NCBI GenBank assembly: GCA_963924555.1
Contig: OZ004583.1
Coordinates: 9,190,582 to 9,254,581 of the forward strand
Direction: 5' to 3'
From: Crambe crambe
Taxonomy: Eukaryota; Porifera; Demospongiae; Poecilosclerida; Crambeidae
Length of the DNA stretch: 64,000 bases
Positions 28,710-49,468 of the stretch are shown piece after piece. Under the pieces are notes generated by a model, which worked only from the letters and a program-made list of their open reading frames with translations, had not been told where the DNA came from and did not search any database. The number at the start of each line of letters is the position of its first letter. Position 1 is the stretch's first letter. The position numbers were made by a program, and so were the translations under genes.

Positions 28710-31091
28710 TCATTTGGTAAAGGGTTTACACATTTGGAAACAGCTAACTAGTTGCAAATTGAATATTGTGTGGAGTACATACTCTAGTCTTGGTACAAAT
28801 TCATGTTGAAGGTCCTGAGTCAGAAGTTGGGGGAATTTGGTGAGGAGAGAGAGGGCCTGTTCTCTGGAGAAGCTTCGCGAGGTGAGAGCACGATACTTTA
28901 ACCTCACACCACAGCCTGGATCCACCAATCCAGTCATTGCACGCAACTATAAATAAACCATTAAACCATTAAATTGCTTAATACTAGGAAGTGGTCACTT
29001 CATAATAATATTATTCTGGTATATTAACCTTTGACCTTGCCACAGAGGGAGAATCAAAGAGTGTGGTCAAGTATTTCAAATGTTTGCGTAACTTCTTCTG
29101 CACAAGATTGCCAGGATAATAATGCATCATAAATAAACAAACAAACAAACAAATAAACAAACAAATAATCAAAACAAACAGACACACCATATCCGTGATG
29201 CTGCAGAGGATGTGTGGCACTGTCTCCAGTAACTTGGCGATGTCCTGAGGATCCAGGTATAAAGGTTTACCCGACAGTATCTTCAGAACATCCTGCAGGT
29301 TCTCAACTACAGGACGAATACATGATTAGCAGGGCTCTCCCCACATAGAGTGAAGGTGATACCATTTTGTTGGAAGAAGTGAGGACACTTGTGGAGGACA
29401 CATTGAGGGTCGGCACTATAGGAGTGGAGGATGGTAGTCAAGAGGGCTGTGTCCCGACACAGTTTCACACGACAAGACGAGTTTCCCAACTAAAAGAAGA
29501 TTCTTATCATTAGCATTATTGTTGGTTACATACTGATTTAATTATAGTACTAGCAGCAGGGTTCGCCCCTTAATGATAACTTACTATATTTTGTAGTATG
29601 AGGGGGGAGATGGCATGAGTGCCGAGACCCTCCAACTTGAACTCCTGGAGAACATCCATGGCTTCCCCCTTCAGAGGGACAGAGGCCAGAATGGGAGCCT
29701 GGTCTAGGAGATTGGCTGGAGGAGGGGGAGGAGGGAGGAGGAGGGAGGAGGGGGGAGGGGAGGGAAGGGAGAGGAGGGGGGAGGGGAGAGGAGGGGAGGG
29801 AGGGGGAGGAGGGAGGAGGAGAGGGGGAGGTAATCTGCATTTTATTCCATGACGTCACTAACTTACCTATTTCAGTCGAAGAGAGATTCAAGTCTTTCAG
29901 CTTCAGTACAGATCTCCGAATCTGAAAGATGAAAAGAACTCGTATATCAAAATAGTGAATACTGACACCAAACATTCAGAACTATGTGAATAGAGGTTTA
30001 CATGTATTCCTCAATTGCAGTCTTAATATTAGACTGACCTTACCATATGATACTAGACTGACCTTATCACTATCCAGCACGAAGATGAATGGATGTCGTT
30101 TCATCAGACCAGTGATCAAATGTTCCTTTATCCCTACCTCCTTGGCTAAGAGGAGATACACATCCTTAAAGTTAGACCAGTCCACATCCATACAGAAAGA
30201 TAAACACGACAGAATATTCGTCACTTGCTTCTTCTTACCAAACCCAAGACCTTTCAAGATTTCCACTCTCTTCTTCATATCGTTCAAAGTGACCCCAAGC
30301 AGAGATGGGGGGGAGTTAAGGTACTTGGAGGCATTGGCCTTCGAGAGCCCCACCTCCGTCACCAAGTAGTCCACCACCTCCCTCACTTCAGGGAGAACAT
30401 GGTCAGTTGCCATAGAGCTCACCTCCTTCACAGTAGTGTCCAAAGCAGCAAATTCAAACTCGTCTGCGATGAAGTTATCATTGGTGAGAGCACAACTTCG
30501 GCTTGAACTGCGTTTCTTGAGTGTGTCATAGTCCATACTACGATTCCCTGTGTGGTAAAGGAGTGGTTTGGATCCCTCGCTGATGGGGAGGACTTCCACA
30601 GGAGTCACCAACACCTTCCCTTCCCCCACTTGCTCCCTCATCACACTCCTCTTCCCACCTTTCACCTTTGACCCTGTCTCTGACCCTGCCATTGGTTCAG
30701 TTGTTGCCATGGAGACATCAGATTTGGTTACTTTAGTACTTAACTGGGTCTCATCTCCATTCACATGTCGACGACCACGCCCCTTTACTGCCCTGCCCCC
30801 TTTTGCCACACCTCTGCTTAGTTTTGTCTCTGTAAAGCACTCTTGTTGTCTGCCTCTATTTTCCTTGATAGTGTCTGAAGACTCCCTTTTCAGCTTTTCC
30901 TGTGAAAGTTCCATCTTGGAGCTAGAGGAGTCTGGAGAGACCCCAAGGGTTGTGATGGCTGTGTTCACGTGCCTCAGTTTCCCTGTGGACGTGGCGACTG
31001 GGCTCAGGAGACCTAGTGTTCTGCACACCTTTCCATGCAGCAGCAGCTGCGGTAAGGACGAACGAAGAAACATGGAAGATAAACAACTCAT
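28710..31091 (-). CDS. mTERF-domain protein
   Basis: Mitochondrial transcription termination factor family; members bind mitochondrial nucleic acid or ribosomal RNA through stacked mTERF helices. Seven exons fit in phase: 30063-31091, 29867-29921, 29585-29715, 29363-29489, 29188-29306, 29036-29097 and 28710-28902, giving about 571 residues. The first Met is taken at 31091 (MSCLSSMFLRSSLPQLLLHG), an arginine/leucine-rich start without acids that looks like a mitochondrial targeting peptide. Residues about 225-343 hold the first mTERF motifs, such as YLVTEVGLSKANASKYLNSP and VEILKGLGFGKKKQVTNILS. Later exons supply further motifs, such as ILSGKPLYLDPQDIAKLLET and ALSLLTKFPQLLTQDL. A long linker separates presequence and repeats. 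The subfamily (MTERF1-4) is not assigned. The very C-terminus is uncertain because a GTATGT donor is available inside the last exon. The start lies 97 bp from gene A on the other strand. Confidence 0.8.
29716..29830 (+). repeat. GGA/GGAGG-rich purine tract
   Basis: About 110 bp of almost pure purine lie within an intron of the mTERF gene. On that gene's strand this is a very long pyrimidine tract directly before the acceptor of exon 29585-29715. Confidence 0.9.
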
Positions 31092-31187
31092 CTTTCCATG
31101 GCCATTTTGTCGACACGTGCGACATGAAGCTTTAACCTTTGACCCGCTTATGTTTGCGCGCCAACCAACGTCTGCTGCTTGCCCACC
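31092..31187. promoter_or_regulatory. Bidirectional promoter between mTERF and gene A
   Basis: Only 96 bp separate the two divergent start codons, so 5' leaders must be short or overlapping. The segment holds TTTGCGCGCC, which fits an E2F-like TTTSSCGC site, and a GACACGTGCG E-box. Function is inferred from position. Confidence 0.5.
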
Positions 31188-34100
31188 ATGTCTCAAGAAG
31201 AAGTGATGCCGCTATTTATGAGGGCAGTAAAAGAAGAAAATCTTACTTTGGTCCATCAATACTTGTGCGAAGGTAAAGTCGACGTGAATGAAGAGTGGTC
31301 GGACTATCGGTACGAGTGGTCTAGGTATAAAACTGCGCTGATATTGGCTTGTAGTACTGGGAACCTTGAAATGGCTGAATTATTAATAAAAGGAGGAGCA
31401 ATGACTGATCATTCAGTGTTTGGAGAATCTGCTTTAACCGTAGCAAGTGAAGTTGGAAATTATGAAATAGTCGAGCTACTTTTAGAGAAGGGTGCACGGG
31501 CTAATTTACAGCATGCTCTGAGGATCACCTGTGAAAAAGGGTACACATCTCTGGTAAGAGTGCTATTGGAGCATGGTGCAAAGGCTTTGGTAAACAAACT
31601 TGTATCAATTTCATACCCTAACAAGTCTCCTTTAATGATTGCAAGCAGTCATGGTCATGATGGAGTGGCTGAAGTGCTGCTAGAAAACAGTGCTAAGGTT
31701 GACTTACAAAATGAAAGAGGATTTTCTGCTTTAATGCTTTCACAAAATGGAGCAGTTGCCAAGGTACTATTAAAATATGGTGCAACGGTTGACTTACTAA
31801 ACCGTCGTGAAAATGATCGATCTGCTTTGATCATAAAAGCAAGTCATGAAGATCATTGCAGTGAAGTTGTCAAAGTATTGTTAGAAAATGGAGCTCAAGT
31901 TGACCTACAAGATAAGAATGGGATATCTGCTTTGATGCAAACAGTTAAGTGCTTTCCAGTCACTAAAGAGCTTAAAGCTGTGGCAAAACTAATAATAAAA
32001 AATGGTGCTAAAATGGATCTTTGTGATATATATGGGAAATCTGCTTTGAAATTCTCACTTGAGCATGAACAGACTGAAATGACTGAAATACTGCTAGATG
32101 GTGGTGCTCGAGTGGATTTGCAGGATAATGAAGGGATTTCCCCTTTAATGTGGGTGTGTCTTCAAGTGTCTCCAAAACTGAAAGCTATTGAGCTGCTACT
32201 AAGAAATGGTGCCACAGTTGATCTACAAGACAATAAAGGAATGTCAGCTCTATTATATGCGTGTCAAAGGAATTTAAACTATTCTTACTTTGCCGCTCAA
32301 CTAAGAACACTTAAAAAAGAAATTATCAAAATAATTCAATTATTGGCAAAAAATTCAAGTCATTCAACAAACAATAAAGGAGAGTCTGCTCTGATGTTAG
32401 CATGTATAAGCGATGATGAACTTAGAGACGTTATTGTGGGAACACTGTTGAACATTGGTGTTCAGATTGATTTGCAAAACGTGGATGGAGACTCAGCTTT
32501 GATGTTGGCATGTAAGAGTCACAAGACTAATGCCTATAACATTGTGAATAAACTATTGCACAATGGTGCTAAAGTTGATTTACAAAACATGGATGGAGAT
32601 TCTGCTTTGATGTTGGCATGTAAAAATTACAACAGTTGTGCCTATAACATTGTGGTTGGATTATTGGACAGTGGTGCTGATGTTGGTTTTAAAAATGTGG
32701 ATGGAAATTCTGCTTTAATGTTGGCATGTAAAAGTAGCAACAATGATATTGTGTCTAAACTATTGCACAGTGGTGCTGCCATTGATTCACAAAACAAGAA
32801 TGGAAAATCTGCTTTGATGATGGTGGCAGCAGATTATAGAATTCAAGCTTCCGATGTCATGTCATCACTGCTAAACAAACTTGCCAAAACAAATTTACAG
32901 GACAATGATGGAGAGACTGCTCTAATGATAGCAAGTAAATGTGGTCATCATGAACTAGTACAGTTGCTACTGGAAAATGGTGCTACAACTGATTTACGCA
33001 ACAAAGATGGAAAATCTGCACTAGATCTTGGTTCAAATTCCGAAGCAGTCACTAAATTATTGAAGGTGAGAAAAGTATGATTTAGATTCACGACTATCCT
33101 CCATTAGTCCCCTCCTCTCCACTTTCAAAAGTGTCCCATGCTTCCCCATAAGCAGATTGCACACTATATTCATAGCCCCTATATAATCAACAAGCTACTT
33201 TCTAATCTATAGACATACTTATAAGCAATATAATTATAATTTCTGCCGTTTATATAGACATATGTGGGATCTGAAGTGCAACAACCTGAAAATACAGCAC
33301 AAGACGAGCAACCTGTTAGTGTCTCCAAACGAGATGAAGATGAATCCGAAGGAGAAGACATGGAATGTAGCCCACAAGATGAACAACCTGTCAGTATGAG
33401 TCAAGATGAATCAGGAGACATGGAAAGTAGCCGACAACACCGAAGTAAGCCCTACCCACCACATTCATTCTTGTACAGCACACTCTGCACTCACTACCTC
33501 TTAGACACACCTCATAGTTGTAAAACCCTATCGATATTTTGCAGATAAGGAATTCATCAAGGGAATTGAAGATGCCTTCGCCAAAAGTGGGAAGGTTGAC
33601 AAAAGAATGGCACAGTTTATGTTCGTTGGTCCTCCTGAGTCTGGTAAGAGTTCACTGATGGATCGTCTCCTTGGTAGACCAAGGAAGAATTTCTCTCTTT
33701 CAACTGGTGTTAGTAGCTCCATCATCATAGTCGATATCGATGAGATCAACCAGACCACTTTCTATTCTGCCGCCACCGAAGAAGACTCAGATATATGGAA
33801 AGAAATAGAGCACAAAGCTTCTTTTGTGAATCAAATGGCACCCGAAAAAAAAAATAGGCCTGGGAACGAGGCTACAGGAACCATTGTAGTTCCTCCACAG
33901 TCTGAGCAAGATACAACCAAGTCCCCAAAAGTACAAAGTGAGAGTCAGACTTCCACACAATCGGCACCTAGTGAGTCCATTGCAAGTCATGGTCGTGTTC
34001 CTTCCGAATCAATTGAAAGTATATCCTTTAAGCTGCCAAGTTCTATTGTATCAATTCTTGAAAAATATTCCCATAAAATCCAGAAGAAAAGATGTTCTCT

Positions 34101-36311
34101 GTATTTCAGGGATACTGGAGGTCAAGTTGAGTTCCAGGAAACGCTAGCTGTCGTGATTTTTGGTCCATCCTTATTTTTCTTTGTCTTCAATCTCGATCTA
34201 GATTTCAAGAGTAAATTCACCATCCAATACAGGTCCAGTACCAGTGAGTCTACTAACTGCTACACTTCCTCAATCACCACAGAAGAAGCCCTTCTCCAAT
34301 GCCTGGCTAGTGTGTATGCAATGGACACATCAGATGAAGGCAGTGTCAAGACACACAGACCTCTGGTTATCATTGTGGGCACACACAAAGATAAGCTGGG
34401 CTCCGTGGCTGATAGCAAAATCACCCAACTGAATCAAGATCTCGATTCATTGATAAAAAGAAATGGGTTTGAAAGTCTTGTTCAGTATGCAGACGTGTCC
34501 GAAGGTCAAGTCATGTATGCAGTGGATAACACTTCTGATAGTGAAGAAGATTTCAAGAGGATTCGATGCAATGTTAACAGTCTTGTTAATATCCGAAAAG
34601 AATTCAGCATTGAATACCCCATCAGCTATCTCCTGTTCTGTCTCGATCTTCAGAATATTGAGAAGAGTGTCTTATCCCTTGATGAATGCAAGGTTTTAGC
34701 AGCCAGGTATGGCATTGAAGGAGACGAGGTGTTTCATCTCTTGCACTTTCTCCATATCAGAACTGGCGTGATTCTGCATTTCAATGTCGAAGGACTTAGT
34801 CATATTATTGTGAAAGAGCCTCAAGTCCTCTTTGATAAGCTAACTACTCTTATTGTCAAAACCTTCTCTTCCAAGTCCCTCACTTCAGAAGAGATGCGAA
34901 GTTTCAAGACAAAAGGCATTTTGGCAGCGTCTACTTTTGAAGATATTACAAGTAGTGATGATAAGATTGGCCACAAGGAATTTCTACAGCTTCTGGTCCA
35001 CCTACGCATTATCACTCCATTCATTACTACAGACAACCAGGAAGAAAGATATTTCATTCCATGTGTCCTAAACCATCTCAATGAATCTCACGAAGATGAC
35101 CTTGAAACTGACATTTTACCATTAGCTTTCAAGTTCCAGTGTTGTCACCCTCCTAAAGGTCTCTTTGGTGTTTTGATCATTCGTCTCATCACCTCCAAGT
35201 CAAAGATTGAGTTCCATCTTTTGCAAGACAAGATATATAAAGACCAAGTTATTCTTGAAGTCTGTTGGGACAATGATCATGATGAAATATCCTTGAAACT
35301 CAAGCCCTCTCACCTGGAAGTAAAGTTCTTTCCTGCAAAATCAAGTTCAGATCTCCAAGTGCATTCTGTATCAGAAGTGTGCAATGCAGTGCGTGAGAGT
35401 ATCGCTGAGTGTATTGATCAATCCATCGAGGATCTTCATTACAGTAAGGCCAAAGTAGGTCCAGAAGCATGCTTCAAATGTGATACCTGTCCTGAACTGC
35501 ATCCTGTGAAGAATGAGACTCTATATTGTCCAAGAAAGAAAGAAAAGAGCCATATTCCAAAGGATGGAATGTACTGGTTCAATAGAGGTGAGATTCATCT
35601 GACATAACAGTCCCCTGCTTATGTAATATTTTTGTACATATAGTGACCTGTACACAGAAGGTTTTGCCATCGGATCAACTCACCTCTAGGAAAAGGACTC
35701 TCGATGAAGATGACTCACTTCAACTACCACTGAAAAGAATATCAAAGGTTAGTTGTTGCTATAGTTACCATAACTTGCATGTGATAGCAACACTCAATGT
35801 TGACTGTGCTCTTAATTGGTTCCATGAAAGTGTCTGATTATAGACTATATGTTTACAGGCCACCACTTTGGAAGAACATCAGTCCAGTGAGTAATGAAAT
35901 TTTTACACGTGTATACAATACAATTACTATACATTCCCTATTATTATTATATAGTTGACACATTAACCATAGCTGACCACTACTATGTCACACAGTACTT
36001 GAGAAGTCTGAACAGTGAGGAGTTAGTACTTCTAGGTCTAGCTCTAGGTTTGCTATACCCCAGCCTGCAAAGGATGAAGTCCACCCCTGGAGGTCTCCCT
36101 AATGACATGATAGCTGCATGGTTGAGGAAAGACAGTAACGTTACAGAACCTCCCACCTGGACCAGTTTGGCTGCAGCCCTGGAAAAAAATGATCACAATG
36201 GACTTGCCTCCGACATCAGGAGAGGTAATGGTTGTAGCCAGCAGTCTCTAATTATTCTATTTATAATTTATTATGTTATTATCAGATCATCCGCCATGCC
36301 AAGCTATCTAA
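31188..36311 (+). CDS. Gene A: ankyrin-Roc-COR-death domain protein
   Basis: Seven exons fit in phase: 31188-33065, 33258-33444, 33545-35587, 35644-35747, 35859-35886, 35955-36224 and a short last exon 36286-36311, giving 1511 residues. The first exon (626 residues) carries about 16-17 ankyrin repeats, ending in near-identical units such as DGDSALMLACKS. An acidic linker (EQPVSVSKRDEDESEGED) follows. The Roc GTPase has a P-loop GPPESGKS near residue 716, a G3 motif DTGGQVEF and a G4 motif GTHKDK, with a Ser/Thr-rich insert between G1 and G3. A COR-like region follows (ISYLLFCLDLQNIEKSVLSL onward), then a conserved tail ending GMYWFN. Residues about 1414-1503 form a death domain (typical end PTWTSLAAALEKND). 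This resembles the logic of DAPK/MFHAS1-type ROCO proteins: a sensor, a GTPase switch and a death-fold output. The ATG at 31188 has a good context (CCACCATGT). The last exon is the least certain part. There is no 2A leader. Confidence 0.85.
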
Positions 36312-36576
36312 TAGTGGATGCAAGAGAACTCCTCTTATCCATACATCACATACACATCACATACATCAAGATAATAATTTAGCATAGATCTATTACTGTA
36401 CATGTATTATTATTTTTACCTTGCTTTGATCGAGTGGCCATTATCTAGTTTCGCGCGCGCGTATCCAGATGATCGATATCCCAATCACTAGTTTGGGGGT
36501 GTGGCACTTATTTATATGGACCAGAAGCTTCGAGTCGTTCTGCAAATTCAGTCTTGCTACGCTACCGCAGCCTACG

Positions 36577-39500
36577 ATGCTATCTGGGTCCTTTTACAGG
36601 TTCTTTCTACTGGGCCTGTGTGTATCTTTGCTACGTCAATGGTGCAGGTGCGAGTGGAAGGGGGAGGGGCTGGTCCAGGACAATAATCTAGCTGTCAAAC
36701 ACCTCTTGCATGGCCACTTGAGGAAGACGAGACTATGGAGGAGAGTAGTGGGAGAAACTCGCCACTCCAGAGGAAAGGGCAGACCAGCTTGGTTCCTGTT
36801 GGGTATCCTGTTCCTCTCTGGAGATGTGGAGTTGAATCCTGGACCCAAGACCAGAGCAGCTGATAAAGGTGATTATGGCATAGCTACAGTACTGAATTTC
36901 TTCCTTTAAAAGTAATAATTCTGAGAAAAACTAGCTATGTGTTTGGCTACAATAAATTCAGAGTGACTACATTTAAAAGAAAATAACCCTCATTTTGAAC
37001 CTAACACCACTTTCTCCTTATCCAGAGGAGGGCCATGTGGTGAAGGTAACGCTGCAAAAAACTGCACAGGAATTTGGATTCACCATGATTGGAGGTGATC
37101 ATCTTGGAGAATATCTCCGAATCAAAAATATAATTCCAGGAAGCATTGCTGATAGAGATGGAATGCTAATGGATGGGGACATCCTCGTTCGAATAAATGG
37201 AATATTTGTTATGACATACAGTCACCAGGAGGTCATGGATCTACTTCAGGATTTTCATATTGGGTCTCATGTTACCATAGAGGTCTGCAGGGGAGAAATA
37301 TCATCAGAGTATGGTTTGTTAGAAAAAAGTGTTGATATTATCAAAGGTCCTCAAGGTTTTGGCTTTTCTTTGGGTGAGTATTAGTATTAAGTCATTTCCT
37401 TTGATGTGATTGTCATGTGATCACTAGGTGAGTCAGCATTAGGCCCAGTAGTGAAGCTGATTACGAACTTCCGTAGTTGTGCTGAGCTACAAGAAGGTGA
37501 CCTGATCCTAAAAGTAAATGATGAGAGTGTCAGGTATTATACCCACGAACATCTGACCGCTGTCCTCGAGAGTTGTCCCAAGGGGAACCAGGCCACCTTC
37601 CTTGTCCACCGACGTCATTCACAAGATGAGGTAATAGCTATCTGAAAATACTTTAAGATCCTATTTGTGATACCTTAATTCCAGCCGATACTCCGGGATG
37701 ATGAACTTAGAATTCCAAGTGGATATACCATTCTTAAGATCCACCTCACAAGACAGGTCCAAGGATTTGGATTCAAGATTAGTGGTGGCAGGAGGAAAGG
37801 TTCCCAGGTCAGTCATAATATCCCCCACACAATTATCAGTAACTTTTCCCCTACATGCAGGCAAATGTAGGGGGCATTTTATCAGGTGGTGCAGCAGCTG
37901 TAGATGGACGTCTCCAGGTAGAGCACTAAATTATACATATCAAACCACCATTCCATGGTCCATTGATGCTACTTATGATAAAGTTATTAGCCTCTTCTTG
38001 ACAGATTGGTGATGAACTGTTGATGATAAATGGAAATAGTGTGTTGGGCATGCTCCACTCTGATGTTGCCAATCTCATCAGACTTGGAGGAGACACTGTC
38101 GAGCTAATCATACGCAGACAAATAAAGGAATCACTCAACTGTAAGTGACGCACTTTTTGTACTAGTTAAGACCAATTGATGGCTATACATGTGATAATGA
38201 CTGCATCACGATCCATGCTACCTATTTATGTTTTGGCTCCAACACACAGTTGATGGAGAGATCCAGCGACACAAAGAAGCTTATATTAAGATCATTGAAG
38301 AGAAACTGAGTGTCGACATAGACATAATCAGACTGGTTTATTTTGGCCTTCCTCGATCAGGAAAGACATCCACTATGCGTCGCTTGATGGGGGACATGTT
38401 GAATATTCTCATTGGCATGAGAGGTAAGGAAGAACCAAGCACTGGAGTGGCAGATGTAAAGCAGATCTTTGTCAGGAATATCTATTCTGAAGTGGGAACG
38501 ATCATATCAAGTAAGTGGTCCAGAACTGACTTGCAGGAAGAAGCTGCAATGCTCACTCAGTTCTTCTACCAAGTTGCTAAGCATAGTGCCGTGAAGGATC
38601 CCTCATCACCACAAAGAAAACCTCCTCCGACAGGAAAGGAGGAGTCCTCTCCCTCCACAGTTAGACCATCCACTGACTTGACTGTTAATGAAGCTACTGC
38701 ACAAATATCACCAACCACAGAGTTCAGGACTTCTAATCCCTCATTATCCAGTGCCTCTAGTTCTCTGTCACCAAATAGAGAAGCGAGTAGAGACAAGGGT
38801 GCAGATATTGATGACATGTTCTCAGCTTTCGAGGAAGCAATAAAAACCGACAGTTTGGACAAGGTTAAGTACTTACTGGAAGATACAACCCTGCTCATCA
38901 ACACAGACACTGGTGGCCATGCTGAGTTTCTGGAAATGCATGCTGCACTCGTCATGGGACCATCCCTTTATCTTCTCTTCAGCCGATTGACCGACAAACT
39001 GGAGAGCCTCTTCAAAGTGTATTACACAAATGAAGAAGGAAAGTCGAGTGAAAAAGAAGATTCTACCTTGACCATGGAAGAAGTTTTCTTCCAAGCTCTA
39101 TCAAGCATCGCATGTTTTAGTGGGTCATCTCCTGATGTCAGTGACACCGTTTCAGGGGTATCTGCTGAAAATTGCAAGCAGACAAAGTACTGCACCAGTC
39201 ACTCTGAATCCAAGGCCCTCTTTGTGGGGACACACCTGGATAAGATAAATCAGCGAAAGTTAAAGAAGAAGGATGAGCTCCTTCAGAAGAAGGTGACATG
39301 TACAAGCTTCTACACGAAAGGGATTATTGAACGTGCTTCTGAAGATCAACTCATGCTTGCAGTGAATAATTACAGTGGTGGCCAGGAAGAGATAGAAGAG
39401 GTCAGAAATATCCTAGAAAGGATAATCAAGAATCGCTTCAAAAAGATCAGGATTCCAGCAGCCTGGCTGATGTTGAGTCTCTATATTCGCAGGAAGGATT

Positions 39501-41045
39501 TGCGTGTGATGACTTTGGATGAGTGTGCTAGACTAGCAGCAAAGCTTGGAATTGATCCCCAGGAAGAGCTGCAGGAGGCACTGTGGTTTCTCCATCACTG
39601 TGTGGGGCTAATCCTATATTACCCGAAGCTAGATGTGCTCAAGGATACAGTGATTTGCGATGTGCAGGTCGTATTTGATAGTGTCACCAAGCTTGTCAAG
39701 AATACATTCACACTTGATAAAGTCACTCCTACAAGAGTGGATGAGTTCAGGGAGAAAGCTCAGTTCACTATGGAGGACATAGAGAACAGTGCATCCAGTG
39801 GTACTGATGCCACCATCCCATTGGATAAACTAGTAAAACTTCTCGAATACCTCAACATTTTGACACGCTTCACTCCCACAAAAGCCAGAAGTGGAGAAGT
39901 TACTTACTTCATGCCTAGTATCTTAAGAAGTGCTAGAGCAGATGACTTGAAAGTCCGTACCTCCCGTAAGGACCCTGCTCCTCTTATGCTGCGATACAAT
40001 TGTGGCTACGTCCCCTTTGGTGTGTTCTCCTACATGATCACCAATATCGTATCTAAGCAACCAAAATGGCGCTTGATAGAAGATAAAATATGGAAGAACA
40101 AGGTCCAATTCCACGTTGGAAGTGATTATGATAACGTCACTCTTATCTCTCGTCCACTGTACATTGAAGTTGTAGTTTCACGAAGTTCAAATCCTCAGAC
40201 TCCAACGAAAGTGCTGTGTGCCCACATCCGACAGGTGGTCCTGTCCACCCTTAAAATAGAGAGAAACTTCACCAGGGACTTCAAATTTGCCTTCGAATGC
40301 CCTGCCCACTCAGGGAGGGACCATCTTTGTGTGCTAGCCAGTGAGACTGCCAGACAGATGGAGTGCTTGAAGAACCCTAAGAAAATACTACCAATCCCTT
40401 TAAAGGATTCTCGATGTATGGTGTGGTTTGAAGAGGTAAGACAAATGCTGTTACTCAATATACAGAACTTATCTCAAATGCTTTCAGTCTAGCACTGATG
40501 ATGAAAGACATGCAAGTGAAGCTACTCCACAATCACTCAGTAAGTATCTTTATCTACCACTTCCATTGAAATTCACTCTCTCACATTTGTAGGAGATAGT
40601 TTGCCGACAAATATGGATGAGAAGGAGCTGAGTGAGTATGACTGTTCAAGACATGCCTTTTCCATATTTAGCTGTATTATGTCTACAGCATCTGATGATC
40701 ATGGTGAGGTGTTGGATTCGGTGGAGTCTCTTTCTGCTCAATGGAGACGACTCTCTAGCAAACTTCGCCTCAAAGGATCCTCACTGAATAGAATTGAGGA
40801 AAATAACCGAGACTGCATGATGTGTCTGGATAAGGCTTTGGTGGAGTGGTTGAACCTGAACTACAACCATTCAAAGTACGGGAGACCAAGCTGGAAGAGA
40901 TTGGCCACAGCTGTGAAGGAGCTGGATTATGCACTCTTTGAAAAGATAGTCTGGGAACATCAAGGTTAGTGTGGCTGCATAATAATTGTACTTGTGTTGA
41001 TTTAGTGTACAATGATTCTCTGCAGCTGAGACTACTGCATGTTGA
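36577..41045 (+). CDS. Gene B: 2A leader, three PDZ, Roc-COR, death domain
   Basis: Ten exons fit in phase (36577-36868, 37026-37373, 37428-37630, 37685-37807, 37861-37917, 38005-38140, 38250-40435, 40488-40539, 40593-40964, 41026-41045), giving 1262 residues. Residues 1-97 form a leader: a hydrophobic start (FFLLGLCVSLL), a basic stretch, then FLLGILFLSGDVELNPGP. This is a 2A ribosome-skipping motif with the expected break between residues 89 and 90. PDZ1 (about 100-185) has FGFTMIGGDHLG. PDZ2 (about 192-280) has FGFSLGESALG across an intron. PDZ3 (about 283-385) has FGFKISGG. The Roc domain has P-loop GLPRSGKT near 419, G3 DTGGHAEF and G4 GTHLDK. The COR-like part includes AAWLMLSLYIRRKDLRVMTL. 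A death domain spans about 1133-1256, and the protein ends AETTAC. PDZ domains would tether C-terminal peptides of membrane or scaffold proteins; the signalling role is inferred. The ATG was chosen because gene C conserves the residues from this Met onward. Confidence 0.85.
36820..36846 (+). promoter_or_regulatory. 2A ribosome-skipping motif, gene B
   Basis: Codons for GDVELNPGP match the 2A consensus D(V/I)ExNPG-P, in which the ribosome releases the nascent chain at Gly and resumes at Pro. A leucine-rich helix-like stretch (FLLGILFLS) precedes it, as in active 2A sequences. Such motifs at N-termini of invertebrate NLR proteins and in non-LTR retrotransposons are known. Activity here is not shown. 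Confidence 0.8.
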
Positions 41046-41345
41046 CAGCATGACAGCCAATCTACTCACTGAGCAATGGATTTTTTATACTTACTGCTGT
41101 GCAATACAAATGGAATAGATTGTGTAGCATTTAGCTTCTCCTTCTTATCATAGCTAGATAGCTAGCTACTTTTATTCTTGCTAGCTACAATTCAAATTCT
41201 CATTTTCTGTCATGAAAAATTTTTGAATCTCTACAATCATATCCCACTTCCTGCATGAATACACCAAGGCTTGGGGGATTTGTTAAGTAGGTGGAGTTTT
41301 CTTCCTTTCAGGCTATATATAATATATGCTTCCTAGTTATTGCAG

Positions 41346-41463
41346 AGCTCACAAGATTCTCAGGTATGGTCTAGCTTCTTCTTTTTGCCTTTTACCCTAT
41401 AACACTATTCATGTATATTGAGTAAGCAGGTGACCAGAAAACATCCTTTTCAACTGCCAGTAT
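41346..41463 (+). pseudogene. Relic of the alternative 3' exons after gene B
   Basis: An 18-nt segment (41346-41363) between TTGCAG and GTATGG matches the microexon after gene C. A second piece starting at 41430 after AGTAAGCAG reads DQKTSFSTAS, identical to the start of the methyltransferase exon after gene C. Homology stops at about 41463, where other sequence takes over and the methyltransferase is missing. If spliced in, it would give gene B a short unrelated tail ending at a stop near 41550. Confidence 0.7.
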
Positions 41464-41815
41464 TAGAATGGATCATGTTAAATCCAGGCGTAGAAGAGAG
41501 AGGGAGAGAGCTCAGCGTGCTTCCGAGACCGCTGAACATGAGATAAGGTAACTCAAACACAGAGAAAACTGAGACAGGTTTGGAGCACTTGAGGGCTAGT
41601 GCAAGTCAGCGGTTGACAGCTGAGGAAAGAGAGGACAGAGGTTATGTTCAGAGACTACTAGACTGTCAGAGGAAAGAGATGCCAGGCTCAAAATCCTGAG
41701 AGAGAGAGAAATATCGTCTTCAGAAAAGAAGTGAGAGGTCATCTTCAGAAACAGCTGAGGAGAGACAGGCTAGGCTGCAGAAAATGAGCAACTATCAAGC
41801 TACATCCTGTCTTTA
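41464..41815 (+). mobile_element. Remnant of a mobile-element ORF with arginine/glutamate repeats
   Basis: Plus-strand fragments in changing frames read RRRRERERAQRASETAEHE, SASQRLTAEERED and SERSSSETAEERQARLQKMS. Repeated RERAQRASETAEERQARL-like units are familiar from the N-terminal part of helicase-type (Helitron-like or PIF1-like) mobile-element ORFs in invertebrates. Stops and frameshifts make it a relic. It begins exactly where homology to the gene C locus is lost. Confidence 0.5.
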
Positions 41816-41958
41816 GCTAGTAGAATTTGCGCATGTGCAAGATAAATTCAAGCGAGCAAAATAAAATGGTCTTAAATTTTGCGAGCACGAATATAATTCT
41901 GTACTGTTGGCAAATTTTGTGAAAGCCAAGACACACCCGAATTTTGGTATGTTCTACA

Positions 41959-44900
41959 ATGCTTTCGGGATCCTGTTATCGGTTTGTTTTGCTGGGCCTG
42001 TGTATATCTTTGCTGCGTCAATGGTGCGAGTGGAAGGGGGAGGGGCAGGTCCAGGATAAGACCAGCTGTAATCTAGCTGTCAAACACCTCTTGCATGGCC
42101 ACTTGAGGAAGACGAGACTATGGAGGAGAGTAGTGGGAGAAACTCGCCACTCCAGAGGAAAGGGCAGACCAGCTTGGTTCCTGTTGGGTATCCTGTTACT
42201 CTCTGGGGATGTGGAGTTGAATCCTGGACCCAAGACTAGAACAGCTGATAAAGGTAGTTATAGATATCCGATATTTAATTTTACTGTGTATTTGACCATA
42301 GATAGAATAGACACGGAACAGGATTGGAAACTTAATACTACCATGCACGTGCTATCCGTGTTTGCCAGGAAATTTTGGCGCGAGATACGAATACATAGTT
42401 AAGAATGAGTTCTGCAAAAGATATCAGAGCGGATATTAGTCTAGTAGCTTAATATTACCTGGGCTAGAGTGTTTCCATGTGTTTTTATAAAAATAATAAA
42501 ATTTGAGACTATATCTAGCTAGATAGTACAAATCTATGAGAGATTCAGTATCTCAAGTTTTGAAGGATGAAGAGTTTAGTCTTCCTCTCTGGCCATCGAT
42601 GCCCGTTCTTGTGCAGAGAGAGTGGATAATAAGAAACTTTACCTTCCAAACTTCTATAGAAGAAAATTGCTACAAAAGCACTTGCACTCATAGCTCTAGT
42701 CCCACAAAGTCTGTACCTCTCTTCCTCAGAAAATGTATTGTGACAATAGGGCTAAATTCTCTATGGTTACAACGCAGATAACATGCACGAATGTATTAGC
42801 TTAATGGGTGTGATGTCACATGACGTAGGCAGTTTCCAATCCTGTTCCGTGTCTAATATCCCTTGAAAATATGTTGTTTTAGTTACTCTGTGACTGTTCC
42901 AGATTATGCATCTCCACCAACTACATCTCCTTCTTCCAACCTATCAATTGCTGACCACTTCAAAGTCACTCAAGTCCTGAAAGCCCTTGATAATAAGCAG
43001 TTGATACACCTGGGCACTGCACTGGGGCTGGAGTATCCACACTTGAAGAGGATGCAGACCTTGCCTGAGGACATGGTAGCTGCATGGTTGAACATGAAAG
43101 ACGAGGTGATGGACACCAGTGGTACTCCCACCTGGTCCAGTTTGGTCAAAGCTCTAGAGGACACCAATCAAAAAGACGTTGCTTCTCGCATCAAGGAAGG
43201 TAAGTTTAAGCCACCCATTAGCTTAATACAATTGTTGTGATCACTGACCATAATTACCATTACATAACCTTACTGTATACACTGTATGGGATTTCTCCAT
43301 TATGTGGCCAAAGAATGATAGTACAGATGGTTTATAGTGTACCTTCTTTTTTTGAAACATACATTCAAAGCAGCTAGTCCCATAGACAGTCTACAGTCAC
43401 ATCATTGGCCCATAAGGGGTTGTCCCATTTGTTTGCCAGGAGGGAAGCTAATAATCATTTGTAGAATACCCTGGTACTGCTTGCCATGCCTCCAGTTGCA
43501 GAGAAGATCAGTGGATGCATGCTTGACATCTCGTATTCTTTTCTCATAAACTTTTTTTTTTCTCTCTTTCATGCTTTCGGTAAACATTTGCAAGTGAGCT
43601 ATTGCTGTTAGATGGAGCATGGGGTTAAATACTCTCACATCACAAAAGCATCTCCTCATGTTTGCCTCCCCAAAAATCATTTACAGAGATGTCCAGCCTA
43701 GCTCCATCCTGGGTGTTAGTGGATTTTAACCTGAATGTTTCCATGGTTAAAGGTTGTAGATCTGGTTCAGTACTCACTTGACAGACTTCTGTGAGCAATT
43801 TGGCCCTTATCTTTTTGTGCCTAAGGATGGGGAAATCACCCCTGGGACAGGATAGGGCGTGTTCTACTGAGCTTAATGGGCGTGATGTCACGTGACGTAG
43901 GCAGTTTCCAATCCTGTTCCGTGTCTAATATCCCTTGAAAATATGAATATAATAGTTGTTTTAGTTACTCTGTGACTGTTCCAGATTATGCATCTCCACC
44001 AACTACATCTCCTTCTTCCAACCTATTAACAACTGCTGACCACTTCAAAGTCACTCAAGTCCTGAAAGCCCTTGATAATGTGCATTTGATACGCCTGGGC
44101 ACTGCACTGGGGCTGAAGTATCCACGCTTGAGGAGGATGCAGACCTTGCCTGATGACTTGATATTTGCATGGTTGAACATGGAAGACGAGGTGATGGACA
44201 CCAGTGGTATTCCCACCTGGTCCAGTTTGGTCAAAGCTCTAGAGGACACCGATCAAAATGACGTTGCTTCTCGTATCAAGGAAGGTAAGTTTAAGCCACC
44301 CATTAGCTTAATACAATTGTTGTGATCACTGACCATAATTACCATTACATAACCTTACTGTATACACTGTATGGGATTTCTCCATTATGTGGCCAAAGAA
44401 TGATAGTACAGATGGTTTATAGTCTACCTTCTTTTTTTGAAACATACATTCAAAGCAGCTAGTCCCATAGACAGTCTACAGTCACATCATTGGCCCATAG
44501 GGGTTGTCCCATTTGTTTGCCAGGAGGGAAGCTAATAATCATTTGTAGAATACCCTGGTACTGCTTGCCATGCCTCCAGTTGCAGAGAAGATCAGTGGTG
44601 TGAAGGATGCATGCTTGACATCTCGTATTCTTTTCTCATAAACTTTTTTTTTCTCTCTTTCATGCTTTCGGTAAACATTTGCAAGTGAGCTATTGCTGTT
44701 AGATGGAGCATGGGGTTAAATACTCTCACATCACAAAAGCATCTCCTCATGTTTGCCTCCCCAAAAATCATTTACAGAGATGTCCAGCCTAGCTCCATCC
44801 TGGGTGTTAGTGGATTTTAATCTGAATGTTTCCGTGGTTAAAGGTTGTAGATCTGGTTCAGTACTCACTTGACAGACTTCTGTGAGCAATTTGGCCCTTA

Positions 44901-47900
44901 TCTTTTTGTGCCTAAGGATGGGGAAATCACCCCTGGGACAGGATAGGGCGTGTTCTACTGAGAAAGTGTTGCCACCAGTCATATCACAAAGCAAGTGCAT
45001 CATGGAAGGCCCCTTTGTGTACGTAGCTTGGATCCAAAATCTGCAATGGGAAGAGCAGTTAACCAGCTAGAGGCACCCTTTTCAGAAGCAAACTCTACAG
45101 ATCTCCTCTTCCCCTGCCATCCATCATCTAATACCAGGCCTAGCTAGCTAGAGGATCGAGCTCTGACAAAGATCCACTGAGGTTGAGATGTGCTAAACTT
45201 GCTTGAAGGATGGGGCGCCAGCTAAATTAACAACTAGTTAAATTAGTTTGCTAGTTGGTGATCGTGTCAGATAATTTTTTTTTTTTTTTTTTTTTTTTGA
45301 AGATTGCAATTTTCACGAATGTACTCTCCTTTCGCGAATTCATGAAATATCGAAAATTAAGTGCTATATTATGGTACACTATTGGAAAGCTCTCACTCTT
45401 TTGAGACCTAAATCAAAGTTTATAGGGGGTAGTATATACTAACCCATTAATTTTTATGTTTGTCAGCTCCACACACAGATCCACTTCATGGGGAGATCCA
45501 GCGACACAAAGAAGCTTGTATTAAGATCATTGAAGAGAAACTGAGTGTCGACATAGACATAATCAGGCTGGTTTATTTTGGCCTTCCTCGGTCAGGGAAG
45601 ACATCCACTATGCGTCGCTTGATGGGGGACATGTTGAATATTCTCATTGCCATGAAAGAGAAGGAAGAACCTAGCACTGGAGTGGCAGACGTAAAGCAGA
45701 TATTTGTCAGGAATATCTATTCTGAAGTGGGAACGATCATATCAAGTAAGTGGTCCAGAGCTGACCTGCAGGAAGAAGCTGCAATGCTCACTCAGTTCTT
45801 CTACCAAGTTGCTGAGCATAGTGCTGCAAAGAATCCCTCGTCACAAGGAAAGCCTCCTTCAACAGGAAAAGCTACTGCACAAATATCACCAACCACAGAC
45901 TTCAGCACTTCTAATCCCTCATTGTCTAGTGCCTCTAATCCCCTGTCATCAAATAAAGAAACGAGTAGAGACAAGGGTGCAGATATTGATGAGATGTTCT
46001 CGGCTTTCGAAGAAGCAATAAAAACCAACAGTTTGGACAAGGTTAAGTACTTATTGGAAGATACAACCCTGCTCATCAACACAGACACTGGTGGCCATGC
46101 TGAGTTTCTGGAAATGCATGCTGCACTCGTCATGGGACCATCCCTTTATCTTCTCTTCAGCCGATTGACCGACAAACTGGAGAGCCTCTTCAAAGTGTAT
46201 TACACAAATGAAGAAGGAAAGTCGAGTGAAAAAGAAGATTCTACCTTGACCATGGAAGAAGTTTTCTTCCAAGCTCTATCAAGCATCGCATGTTTTAGTG
46301 GGTCATCTCCTGATGTCAGTGACACCGTTTCAGGGGCACCTGCTGAAAATTGCAAGCAGACAAAGTACTGCACCAGTCACTCCGAATCCAAGGCCCTCTT
46401 TGTGGGGACACACCTGGATAAGATAAATCAGCGAAAGTTAAAGAAGAAGGATGAGCTCCTTCAGAAGAAGGTGACATGTACAAGCTTCTACACGAAAGGG
46501 ATTATTGAACGTGCTTCTGAAGATCAACTCATGCTTGCAGTGAATAATTACAGTGGTGATCAGGAAGAGATAGAAGAGGTCAGAAATATCCTAGACAGGA
46601 TAATCAAGAATCGCTTCAAAAAGATCAGGATTCCAGCAGCCTGGCTGATGTTGAGTCTCTATATTCGCAGGAAGGATTTGCGTGTGATGACATTGGATGA
46701 GTGTGCTAGACTAGCAGCAAAGCTTGGAATTGATCCCCAGGAAGAGCTGCAGGAGGCACTGTGGTTTCTCCATCACTGTGTGGGGCTAATCCTATATTAC
46801 CCGAAGCTAGATGTGCTCAAGGATACAGTGATTTGCAATGTGCAGGTCATATTTGATAGCGTCACCAAGCTCATCAAGAATACATTCACACTTGATAAAG
46901 TCACTCCTACAAGAGTGGATGAGTTCAGGGAGAAAGCTCAGTTCACTATGGAGGACATAGAGAACAGTGCATCCAGTGGTACTGATGCCACCATCCCATT
47001 GGATAAACTAGTAAAACTTCTCGAATACCTCAACATTTTGACACGCTTCACTCCCACAAACGTCAGAAGCGGAGAAGTTACTTACTTCATGCCTAGTATC
47101 TTAAGAAGTGCTAGAGCAGATGACTTGAAAGTCCGTACCTCCCGTAAGGACCCTGCTCCTCTTATGCTGCGATACAATTGTGGCTACGTCCCCTTTGGTG
47201 TGTTCTCCTACATGATCACCAATATCGTATCTAAGCAAACAAAATGGCGTTTGATAGAAGATAAAATATGGAAGAACAAGGTCCAATTCCACGTTGGAAG
47301 TGATTATGATAAAGTCACTCTTATCTCTCGTCCACTGTACATTGAAGTTGTAGTTTCACGAAGTTCAAATCCTCAGACTCCAACAAAAGTGCTGTGTGCC
47401 CACATCCGACAAGTGGTATTATCCACCCTTAAAATAGAGAAAAACTTCACCAGGGACTTCAAGTTTGCCTTCGAATGCCCTGCCCACTCAGGGAGGGACC
47501 ATCTTTGTGTGCTAGCCAGTGAGACTGCCAGACAGATGGAATGCTTGAAGAACCCTAAGAAAATACGACCAATCCCTTTAAAGGATTCTCGATGTATGGT
47601 GTGGTTTGAAGAGGTATGACAAATACTGTTATTCACTATACAGAACTTATCTCAAATGTTGTTTTTTTTTTACTTTCAGTCTAGCACTGATGATGAAAGA
47701 CATGCAAGTGAAGCTACTCCACAATCACTCGGTAAGTATCTATAGCCACCACCTCCATTGAAATTCACTCTCTCACATTTGTAGGGGATAGTTTGCCGGC
47801 AAATATGGATGAGAAGGAGCTGAGTGAGTATGACTGTTCAAGACATGCCTTTTCCATATTTAGCTGTATTATGTCTACAGGATCTGATGATCATGGTGAG

Positions 47901-48236
47901 GTGTTGGATTCAGTGAAATCTCTTTCTGCTCAATGGAGACGACTCTCTAGCAAATTAGGGCTTGAAATATCCTCACTGGATAGAATTGAGAAAGATAACC
48001 CTGGAGACTGCATGATGTGTCTGGACAAGGCCTTAGTGGAGTGGTTGAACCTGAACTACAACTGTTCAAAGCATGGGAGACCAAGCTGGAAGAGATCGGC
48101 CACAGCTGTGAAGGATCTGGATTATGCACTCTTTGAAAGAATAGTCAAGGAACATCAGGGTTAGTGTGGATGTATGCATGGAGCTTACGATTTAGTGTAC
48201 ATATACTTCCATGCAGCTGAGACCACCTCGTGTTGA
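41959..48236 (+). CDS. Gene C: 2A leader, two death domains, Roc-COR, death domain
   Basis: Seven exons fit in phase (41959-42253, 42903-43199, 43985-44284, 45467-47613, 47680-47731, 47785-48159, 48217-48236), giving 1161 residues. The leader (98 residues) is nearly identical to that of gene B and carries GDVELNPGP. Exons 2 and 3 are symmetric phase-1 duplicates, each one death domain (residues about 99-197 and 198-297; shared LGTALGL and PTWSSLVKALEDT). Exon 4 encodes the Roc-COR chassis with P-loop GLPRSGKT, G3 DTGGHAEF and G4 GTHLDK. It differs from gene B by a few dozen substitutions and a shorter Ser/Pro-rich insert after the first Roc part. A third death domain occupies about 1031-1155, and the protein ends AETTSC. 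An alternative ending into a methyltransferase exon is described separately. Three death domains suggest homotypic assembly, as in apoptosis or innate signalling; this is inferred. Confidence 0.8.
42205..42231 (+). promoter_or_regulatory. 2A ribosome-skipping motif, gene C
   Basis: The same GDVELNPGP as in gene B, preceded by FLLGILLLS. Synonymous and nearby changes between the two copies leave the motif intact, which suggests selection. Confidence 0.8.
42799..44960 (+). repeat. Tandem duplication, about 1.07-1.09 kb unit
   Basis: Unit 1 (about 42799-43869) and unit 2 (about 43870-44960) are head-to-tail copies beginning GCTTAATGGG-GTGATGTCAC. Each holds one death-domain exon of gene C plus about 670 bp of intron containing a retroelement fragment on the minus strand. 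Small indels separate the copies. Confidence 0.9.
43402..43871 (-). mobile_element. Retroelement ORF fragment, copy 1
   Basis: Minus-strand frames read SVEHALSCPRGDFPILRH, then LLTEVCQVSTEPDLQPLT, DGARLDISVNDFWGG, and after a frame change CDVRVFNPMLHL. These are the conserved blocks of a protein segment that commonly accompanies reverse transcriptases in invertebrate retroelements. It is broken by frameshifts and truncated at its 5' side by the tandem duplication junction, so it is a relic within an intron of gene C. Confidence 0.6.
44480..45075 (-). mobile_element. Retroelement ORF fragment, copy 2 (longer)
   Basis: The same fragment as copy 1, extended at its 5' side by about 110 bp that add KGAFHDALALRYDW in another frame before SVEHALSC. 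The extra sequence shows that this copy lies at the original insertion and copy 1 was made by duplication. Frameshifts are present. Confidence 0.6.
45275..45298 (+). repeat. Poly-T run
   Basis: About 23 T residues in the intron before the Roc-COR exon of gene C. It could be the poly-A tail trace of a minus-strand retroposed element. Confidence 0.85.
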
Positions 48237-48510
48237 CAACATAACAGCCAGCCAATCTAGACTACTCACTGTGTGCAATGGATTTTATAGCTAGCTTACA
48301 TGAACCTCTCCTTCTATATACCACTTCTCAATTTCTTATCATAGCTAGATACTTTATTCTTGCAGTGCTACAATTCATTTTTTATTTTCTCCTGTCATGA
48401 AAAATTTTGAATCTCTACAATTACATCCCACTTCCTGGATACCAAAGCTTGTTAAGTAGGTGGAGTTTTCCTATGACACTACAGACTATTATGTTTCCTA
48501 GTTATTGCAG

Positions 48511-49468
48511 AGCTCACAAGGTTCTCAGGTATGGTCTGCCTAAGCCAGTGCTGATGATGTGTAAGTGAATTAAGTCAGGTCAGCTTCCCCTTTTTGCCTT
48601 TTACCTAAAACACTCTATTCATGTGTATATTGAGTAAGCAGGTGACCAGAAAACATCCTTTTCAACTGCCAGTAATAACTGGGAAGAGGACTTTGACCCC
48701 CACCTCTACCTCACCAGTCGCTATGGACAACCTGGGTCCAACTACAAACCTAATGTTGTCATGGACTTCTTGTTCCAGTCCATACACAACTTTTCCTACT
48801 CCTTACCAACTTACCCTCCAGACATGCGTGTGTTAGAATATGGGTGTGGCCCTGTCCCCATCCACATGACTAGTTTCTGCCGATATGGGGCAGCATCAGA
48901 AGTCGTGTTAGCCGAATATTTGGGAAAGAATCGCCAGGAGGTTGAAAAGTGGTTGCATTGTGACCCAATGATGTTTAATTGGTCGAGTTGTATCAGATAT
49001 ATTGTCAAGAATTTGGAAGGGGGAGATGAATTGGATATTGTCAAACGTGAGGAGAGGATGCGAAAAATCATCAAAGCAGTTATTCCATGTGATATTACTC
49101 AAACTCCTCCTATTGGGTGTGGCTATGAAGGACCATATGATATGATAGCAAGTATTTTTTGTATTGAGGCTGGGAGTCAGACAGAGGAGGAATACTGTGC
49201 TGGTGTGGAGAAACTGGTATCCCTATTGAAACCAGGTGGCTATATTCAGCTTTTTTCTGGGAGATGGGGGAGAAGAGACTCTAATGAGTGTGGTTTCTAC
49301 CTTGTGGGGGACAAGAGGTTTCACAATGTGGCACTCTCTGAAGACTTAGTGAGGGAAGCTCTTGCAAAAGCAAGGTGCAGTCATGTGACCATAAAACAAC
49401 TCTCTGTGTCGTTTGATCCTTCTCTCACTGATATGAATGGATTTATGTTTGTCACTGCTCGAAATTAA
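48511..49468 (+). CDS. NNMT/PNMT-like methyltransferase, probable alternative 3' module of gene C
   Basis: SAM-dependent N-methyltransferase of the NNMT/PNMT/INMT family. The exon 48642-49468 encodes 275 residues from DQKTSFSTAS to the stop. Family features are visible in order: N-terminal DFDPHLYLTSRYG, the SAM motif VLEYGCGPVPIHM, EVEKWLHCDP followed by FNW, the VIPCDITQTPPIG block, an LLKPGGYIQ strand and a C-terminal sheet. No ATG precedes the conserved N-terminal part, so it must be spliced from upstream. An 18-nt microexon (48511-48528) and this exon are both in phase 1, exactly compatible with the third death-domain exon of gene C. Skipping the stop exon 48217-48236 would give a 1436-residue fusion. 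A separate gene with an unseen first exon is the alternative. Confidence 0.75.

Follow-up and report, generated by a model that had tools for sequence, protein, structure and literature searches.

In plant NLRs with integrated decoys, a domain of a host protein has been duplicated into the receptor. DAPK1 has the order of ankyrin repeats (Ank), Roc-COR and death domain that recurs in gene A, one of three neighbouring genes (A, B and C) analysed here in a 64,000-nucleotide stretch of the genome of the sponge Crambe crambe (contig OZ004583.1, positions 9,190,582 to 9,254,581; ‘the window’). All three join a Roc-COR core to death-type domains behind a different front end. The N-terminal 2A sequences of sea-urchin (S. 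purpuratus) NLRs have been shown to cause ribosome skipping, with the unskipped form targeted to the secretory pathway, and 2A-like signal sequences of 26 N-terminal amino acids are given for 14 NLR entries (PMC4981915). Brown-algal ROCO proteins are described as solely of the leucine-rich repeat (LRR)-Roc-COR type with exon-shuffled LRRs, have been proposed as immune receptors and reach 47 genes in the largest count (PMC11378527). Finally, 357 TRADD-N proteins are reported from the sponge Amphimedon, as part of marine-invertebrate expansions in which death-like domains are joined to variable parts, and bacterial LRR-AP-GTPase-COR proteins carry variable C-terminal domains (PMC8195603). All cited papers are drawn on in selected sections, and comparisons with them extend to those sections.

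Each ingredient of the present locus has a precedent: 2A leaders in sea-urchin NLRs, shuffled ROCO genes in brown algae and death-domain expansions in Amphimedon. Unlike in DAPK1, Pfam found no kinase family in the Ank or Roc-COR open reading frames (ORFs) of gene A, B and C are without ankyrin repeats, and both carry a 2A leader; unlike in the plant integrated-decoy NLRs, the receptor belongs to an animal, uses Roc-COR as its switch and has a putative bait role. As in the sea urchin, a D(V/I)ExNPGP motif ends a hydrophobic N-terminal leader ahead of death-domain receptors, here also on a Death-NACHT gene; however, the leader is 97-98 amino acids long, forms a separate phase-1 exon, fronts Roco genes, belongs to a family common to Roco and NACHT genes and has a putative skipping activity (PMC4981915). 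The expanded Roc-COR family and the exon-based variation of its sensor part resemble the brown-algal case, whereas the front ends here are unrelated to one another (Ank, PDZ, DD), the outputs are death domains, and COR-A matches above the Pfam cut-off number 149 among the best 150 of 339 candidates in the genome, some of which may be pieces of one gene (PMC11378527). The joining of death-like domains to variable parts is also shared with the TRADD-N and Death-like receptors and the AP-GTPase conflict systems, but the constant part of the former in animals is TRADD-N and not Roc-COR, and no 2A leader or MAGI capture is described for them in the sections drawn on (PMC8195603).

The mosaic assembly of these genes, the preservation of their reading frames and the constraint on their core are seen directly in the sequence. 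We consider it fairly probable that they are exon-shuffled Roco receptors, probably immune, with dual-targeting leaders, B and C belonging to a large intracellular family. The gene models were rebuilt from the window sequence, with GT-AG introns and open frames as the criteria. Gene A reads Ank-Roc-COR-DD, gene B leader-PDZ-PDZ-PDZ-Roc-COR-Death and gene C leader-DD-DD-Roc-COR-Death-methyltransferase, Death and DD (death domain) being two types of death exon. All exons lie on the plus strand, as follows (positions in the window; phases as entry-exit).

31188..33065, +, gene A first exon, with the ATG (31188) and the ankyrin repeats; phase 0-0
33258..33444, +, gene A acidic linker exon; phase 0-1
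33545..35587, +, gene A Roc-COR exon; phase 1-1; 27% amino acid identity to the Roc-COR of B
35644..35747, +, gene A linker exon
35859..35886, +, gene A second linker exon
35955..36224, +, gene A exon for the C-terminal death fold (DD type); phase 1-1
36286..36311, +, gene A last exon, short, to the stop
36577..36868, +, gene B leader exon; starts hydrophobic, carries the 2A motif GDVELNPGP; phase 0-1
37026..37373, +, gene B PDZ1 exon; MAGI PDZ1, 75/114 amino acids; phase 1-1
37428..37630, +, gene B PDZ2 exon; MAGI PDZ2, 44/68 amino acids; phase 1-0
37685..37807, +, gene B PDZ3 first exon; MAGI PDZ3, 18/28 amino acids; phase 0-0
37861..37917, +, gene B PDZ3 second exon; MAGI PDZ3-like 11/18 amino acids, PDZ5 9/13; phase 0-0
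38005..38140, +, gene B PDZ3 third exon; MAGI PDZ5, 26/44 amino acids; phase 0-1
38250..40435, +, gene B Roc-COR exon; phase 1-0
40488..40539, +, gene B linker exon; phase 0-1
40593..40964, +, gene B exon for Death (Pfam 2.2e-5); phase 1-1
41346..41363, +, gene B mini exon, 18 nt; phase 1-1
41430..41551, +, gene B tail exon, to the stop; its start resembles the methyltransferase exon of C, then Arg/Glu-rich
41959..42253, +, gene C leader exon, also carrying a 2A motif; phase 0-1
42903..43199, +, gene C DD1 exon; phase 1-1; 274/297 nt to a post-COR DD exon on contig C16
43985..44284, +, gene C DD2 exon; phase 1-1; tandem copy of DD1 including its intron
45479..47613, +, gene C Roc-COR exon; phase 1-0; 2062/2129 nt the same as B
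47680..47731, +, gene C linker exon; phase 0-1
47785..48159, +, gene C Death exon; phase 1-1
48511..48528, +, gene C mini exon; phase 1-1
48642..49468, +, gene C last exon, methyltransferase (NNMT/PNMT/TEMT), in frame with the preceding exons, to the stop

The coding lengths are 4536 nt for A (1511 amino acids), 3909 nt for B (1302) and 4299 nt for C (1432), and all divide by three, as had been claimed from a first reading of the DNA (the original prediction). Its account of the intron phases was borne out by the rebuilt models: the leaders exit in phase 1, the DD exons are 1-1, the PDZ block is 1-1 overall, the Roc-COR exons are entered in phase 1 and, in the tails, the Death and mini exons are both 1-1 in B and C. 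The different front ends that it had described, namely ankyrin repeats in A, three PDZ domains in B and two death domains in C, were likewise recovered. Nothing in the data pointed to the trans-gene splicing that it had raised. An alternative is that front end, core and methyltransferase do not share one transcript, because the genes are in fact several short ones or were misassembled; the 3.2 kb between leader and core in gene C, and the possibility that the methyltransferase exon has a start of its own, would suit such an arrangement. However, every junction is GT-AG and in frame in all three models, the downstream exons and introns are common to B and C, and the mini exon and methyltransferase acceptor of C stay in frame, with the same acceptor kept in B. 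We regard separate genes or misassembly as highly improbable.

Pfam recognised the ankyrin repeats of gene A (PF12796, 5e-88), the PDZ domains of gene B (4e-10), the Death domains of B and C (24.9 and 24.4 bits; cut-off 22.6 bits) and the methyltransferase of gene C (PF01234, 1e-44), which has only distant relatives in the genome (best 38%). When single exons were scored for COR-A (cut-off 35.3 bits), A reached 35.5 bits and B and C fell below the cut-off at 32.3 and 34.1; in the whole-genome search the scores were 39, 36.3 and 37.9 bits respectively, all above the cut-off, which is the COR criterion of ROCO proteins. Roc scored 22.0 bits in A, under its cut-off of 27 bits, and the G motifs GxPxSGKxS (P-loop), DTGG and VGTHxDK align across the three proteins when B and C are compared with A. 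Pfam did not recognise the DD exons of A and C; an AlphaFold model of DD1 has six helices with a predicted local distance difference test score (pLDDT) of 60, and its top Foldseek matches are death domains, none with E < 0.001. No NACHT match was found in the scanned ORFs of A, B and C, and a PADLOC search with the Roc-COR exons of A and B was negative.

The Roc-COR exons of B and C are identical at 2062 of 2129 nt, their linkers at 51 of 52 and their Death exons at 341 of 372. Synonymous divergence (dS) between the two Roc-COR exons is 0.075 and the ratio of nonsynonymous to synonymous divergence (dN/dS) is 0.28, so that both copies look constrained. Gene A shares only 27% of Roc-COR amino acids with B, is without a leader and ends in a death exon of the DD type (47% identical to the DD of C). 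The ‘common chassis’ that the original prediction had extended over all three genes is therefore common to B and C, with A as a distant relative, and a single chassis for A, B and C was rejected. Gene A, whose Ank-Roc-COR-death order resembles that of DAPK minus the kinase, is also what could lead one to see ordinary duplicated DAPK-like scaffold genes here, with no immune role and with front ends varying by random exon gain and loss. This is very unlikely in our estimation, given the expansion of the family (COR-A, best 150 of 339 candidates scored), the association with 2A leaders and the excess of change in a DD exon over its noncoding flanks described below.

The front ends of B and C are mutually non-homologous and sit as phase 1-1 blocks. 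The introns at the edges of the swap, after the leader and before Roc-COR, are dissimilar between the two genes (z 0.3 and 0.1 versus shuffles), and two introns inside the shared part are similar (z 13.2 and 11.3). The region between leader and core has been exchanged in a manner bounded by exons. The tails differ too, being short in B and a methyltransferase in C. The DD exons have a close relative elsewhere in the genome: the match between DD1 of gene C and the C16 exon (274/297 nt) comprises the exon plus ∼ 17 nt per side, and the flanking introns show no similarity (z 0.3 and 0.9). The C16 exon follows a COR-like ORF (locus L069) that scores 18 bits for COR-A, below the cut-off, and is 23% identical to the Roc-COR of gene A (E 8e-13). 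Therefore, a death exon that lies behind COR in one gene has a close copy ahead of Roc-COR in another.

Within gene C, the tandem copies DD1 and DD2 differ by 18 changes in 297 exon bases versus 5 in 777 noncoding bases (p 5e-7). Of these 18 difference sites, the C16 exon has the DD1 state at 14 and the DD2 state at 4. The pattern of change in the DD2 exon could also have arisen through import of sequence from a donor not seen here. The nearest relatives of the modules are scattered: that of the leader lies on C5 at 9.0 Mb, that of the PDZ block on C5 at 0.6 Mb in a MAGI gene, that of DD on C16 and that of Death on C18 (outside the window, the Death exon of B has its closest relatives on C18, C10 and C1). 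Together with the mixed paralogue P43 described below, these separate locations of the closest relatives of B and C modules make exon shuffling, as originally predicted, a well supported reading of the sequence, better so than the window alone allows; the ‘modular recognition system’ that was proposed with it is plausible.

In a genome exon search with the B PDZ1 exon, the only close relative was found on C5 at 0.6 Mb (65%), the other four being 24-32% identical. The gene at this position (loci L071 and L073) contains PDZ0, a guanylate-kinase piece (1.2e-11) and PDZ1-5, with a WW-like motif seen by eye, and its PDZ1 matches MAGI-2 and MAGI-1 in the PDB; on this domain order and these matches it is the resident MAGI gene. 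B PDZ1 and PDZ2 correspond to MAGI PDZ1 (75/114 amino acids) and PDZ2 (44/68) and match MAGI-2 in the PDB, and B PDZ3 is a composite that starts like MAGI PDZ3 and ends like MAGI PDZ5 (26/44). Moreover, five donor sites of B fall at the same codon and in the same phase as MAGI donors, three of them in PDZ1-3 and two in PDZ5. The block therefore came as DNA that still had its introns, rather than as a retrocopy, and has lost its middle. Both nearest sequence and shared introns indicate that the B PDZ block derives from the genome's own MAGI gene.

The origin of this block from a MAGI-type scaffold, and the many changes in the DD2 exon, could be accommodated if the mosaic Roco proteins served self/non-self (allo)recognition or the sensing of tissue contact instead of pathogens, the MAGI PDZ block then monitoring the sponge's own junction proteins. 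The leader family held in common with Death-NACHT genes points instead to receptors of an immune type, and we judge allorecognition or contact sensing to be unlikely.

The leaders of B and C, of 97 and 98 amino acids, both end in GDVELNPGP, a 2A (StopGo) motif of the form D(V/I)ExNPGP. Both contain two hydrophobic stretches, one at residues 5-19 and one directly ahead of the motif; in the B leader hydropathy peaks at residues 5-19 and 72-86. Although StopGo/2A was described in 2026 as rare among cellular genes (PMC12846837), the motif has 208 matches in this one genome and its reversed pattern 0. Downstream domains were assessed for the 198 matches with listed positions, Roc/COR being counted within 40 kb and before the next 2A; the domain lists held the best 150 of 340 DD candidates, 150 of 339 for COR-A and 103 of 232 for NACHT, together with 54 hand-picked Roc matches in long open frames, and all counts refer to these listed matches. 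Roc/COR lies downstream of 42 of the 198 motifs (B and C included), compared with 1 of 198 when strands were flipped and 2.9 at random, and a DD exon lies within 3 kb of 23 of them (0 flipped, 0.4 random).

The same leader family also fronts Death-NACHT genes nearby; in one case (locus L070; Death 5.9e-9, NACHT 8.4e-21) the leader is 82% identical in protein. Synonymous distances were taken over the last 48 codons without gaps, leaving out L028, L023 and L058, which differ in length and are out of register. To four leaders that precede Death or Death-NACHT exons they are 0.085-0.147 for B and 0.084-0.116 for C, to the leader of P43, a nearby Roco paralogue described below, they are 0.12-0.15, and for four leaders at C5 5.9-6.3 Mb that have Roc/COR downstream they rise to 0.29-0.38. 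Leader similarity thus tracks neighbourhood rather than receptor class, as would be expected if leader exons were exchanged, or converted, between classes. The Death-NACHT gene of L070 is followed downstream by a cysteine-rich repeat ORF (L070:4641-5969; Pfam Carb_bind PF10645, 6 stretches).

Gene conversion might be the whole of this likeness if the 2A of the leaders were inert and the leaders ordinary signal or anchor sequences, perhaps of an old retrotransposon. Indeed, 2A sequences are known in non-LTR (long terminal repeat) retrotransposons (PMC11512398, in the sections drawn on), and the 3' halves of the leaders are near-identical while their 5' halves differ: B agrees with the NACHT-type leaders L041 and L048 at 0.95-0.97 in the 3' part and at 0.63-0.64 in the 5' part. 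On C13, moreover, 3' halves of 2A leaders form a tandem array, ∼ 231 bp apart and with in-frame TGA stops (L064-L067, G000:C13:2951671-2955955), which suggests a decayed or repeat-like use of the leader. A search with the leader protein, rather than with the motif, gave 33 matches, of which 10 are without the listed exact motif; the other 23, however, have it, and dN/dS between the B and C leaders is 0.17. The ORFs near 2A motifs provide a further argument against an inert leader. Among 65 such ORFs, comprising 62 of at least 110 amino acids from 30 motif loci (L009-L038) and three chosen ones (L047, L048, L050), 18 families were matched, Death by 8 ORFs, immunoglobulin (Ig) by 6 and NACHT by 1. 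The chosen three supplied some of the Death matches and probably that with NACHT. The 18 families include no reverse transcriptase or endonuclease, and leaders as retrotransposon parts were rejected within this sample. An inert 2A is on balance quite unlikely.

Two further groups of leaders were observed. Nine 2A leaders of another type lie at G000:C1:3.55-3.99 Mb (L009-L017), with an Ig-like ORF ∼ 1 kb downstream in L009, as seen by eye, and 2A leaders may thus also stand in front of Ig-domain proteins. A mirror-image cluster occupies G000:C5:5.78-6.37 Mb, on the minus strand to ∼ 6.135 Mb and on the plus strand from ∼ 6.176 Mb, and many of its leaders have COR 13-39 kb downstream.

The paralogue P43 (C5 9.07-9.09 Mb) contains, on one strand and in order, a B-like leader (75% amino acid identity), a core, a B-like Death exon (61.5%) and a C-like DD exon (44%). 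Its Roc-COR is 41.5% identical to that of A versus 25% to that of B, and P43 thus seems to be a mixture, its core resembling A and its leader and Death exon resembling B. At this locus (L074-L075, G000:C5:9072400-9085600) the ∼ 8 kb from the leader to the Roc-COR exon hold no recognised domain, and the ORF after the DD (L074:2-562, minus strand) is without a Pfam match.

Several observations weigh against the reading of B and C as exon-shuffled, dual-targeted immune receptors. In the domain analysis, the ORFs of B and C gave no Pfam match for Roc, and structure prediction of Roc-COR was uninformative (pLDDT 37). The dN/dS of 2.9 between DD1 and DD2 is not significantly above 1 (p 0.18), and positive selection on DD2 is not claimed. 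The third PDZ domain of B scores best with DLG4 in the PDB, and no MAGI intron corresponds to the point at which the PDZ block is entered, where MAGI has exon sequence; this entry acceptor is new. In addition to the 10 leader-like matches that are without the exact motif, 128 of the 198 2A motifs have no listed DD, Roco or NACHT match downstream, and NACHT follows 7 of the 198, with 0 when flipped but 4.2 at random, so that no NACHT enrichment behind 2A is claimed. The Roco leader of P43 (L043) is as close to B and C (dS 0.152 and 0.118) as are the NACHT-type leaders; leader distance is therefore no proof of a class switch in one direction, and the claim that the B and C leaders are synonymously nearer the NACHT type than every other Roco leader was withdrawn. 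A tree of 23 leaders places B and C beside Roco-associated leaders and outside the NACHT-type group with moderate support (81/88). Finally, P43 and the other pairs of leader and Roco are presumed single genes, on the basis of order and distance (8 kb in P43).

Under the immune-receptor reading, the front end (PDZ, Ank or DD) would bind a ligand or partner, Roc-COR would then switch state, and the Death and DD modules would oligomerise and so set off inflammatory signalling or the death of the cell. On the model of the plant integrated decoys, the MAGI-derived PDZ domains could form an integrated bait that attracts ligands aimed at MAGI itself. The leader, if it behaves like those of the sea-urchin NLRs, would be a signal sequence ending in a ribosome-skipping 2A: with skipping the receptor would stay in the cytoplasm, and without it a leader-fused form would enter the secretory pathway (PMC4981915). 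A wider proposal, which we put forward only tentatively, is that of a shared kit for intracellular immune receptors, an animal counterpart of the plant integrated-decoy NLRs, in which a leader exon that is both signal sequence and skipping element is swapped between the unrelated NACHT and Roc-COR switch families, Roco receptors capture as baits exon blocks from target proteins of the animal itself (here the PDZ domains of MAGI) and 2A sets the split between cytoplasm and secretory pathway.

The 2A motif, the MAGI origin of the PDZ block and the fused methyltransferase are new beyond the original prediction. In a literature search of partial coverage on 2A, Roco, decoys and MAGI, no title or abstract on 2A leaders of Roco genes was found, although eukaryotic 2A surveys may list such genes; nor, with the same coverage, was the combination of a leader family common to NACHT and Roco genes with a Roco gene carrying a captured MAGI block. 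The locus provides a worked case, with related loci identified, of receptor-like genes assembled by exon shuffling in an animal: a block of a host scaffold gene has been captured, a death exon has been relocated and one leader is common to receptor classes. It also makes two questions directly testable, namely whether integrated decoys occur in animals and whether the compartment of an immune receptor depends on its 2A leader.

Two observations concern the sequence around the genes. The ORF upstream of gene A, at 29982-31211 of the window on the opposite (minus) strand, is mTERF-like (Pfam 2.8e-6); it lies head to head with gene A and overlaps its start region. At the 3' end of gene B (41430-41800), the Arg/Glu-rich run after the methyltransferase-like start resembles an inserted element, and the methyltransferase of this gene seems to have been lost or replaced.

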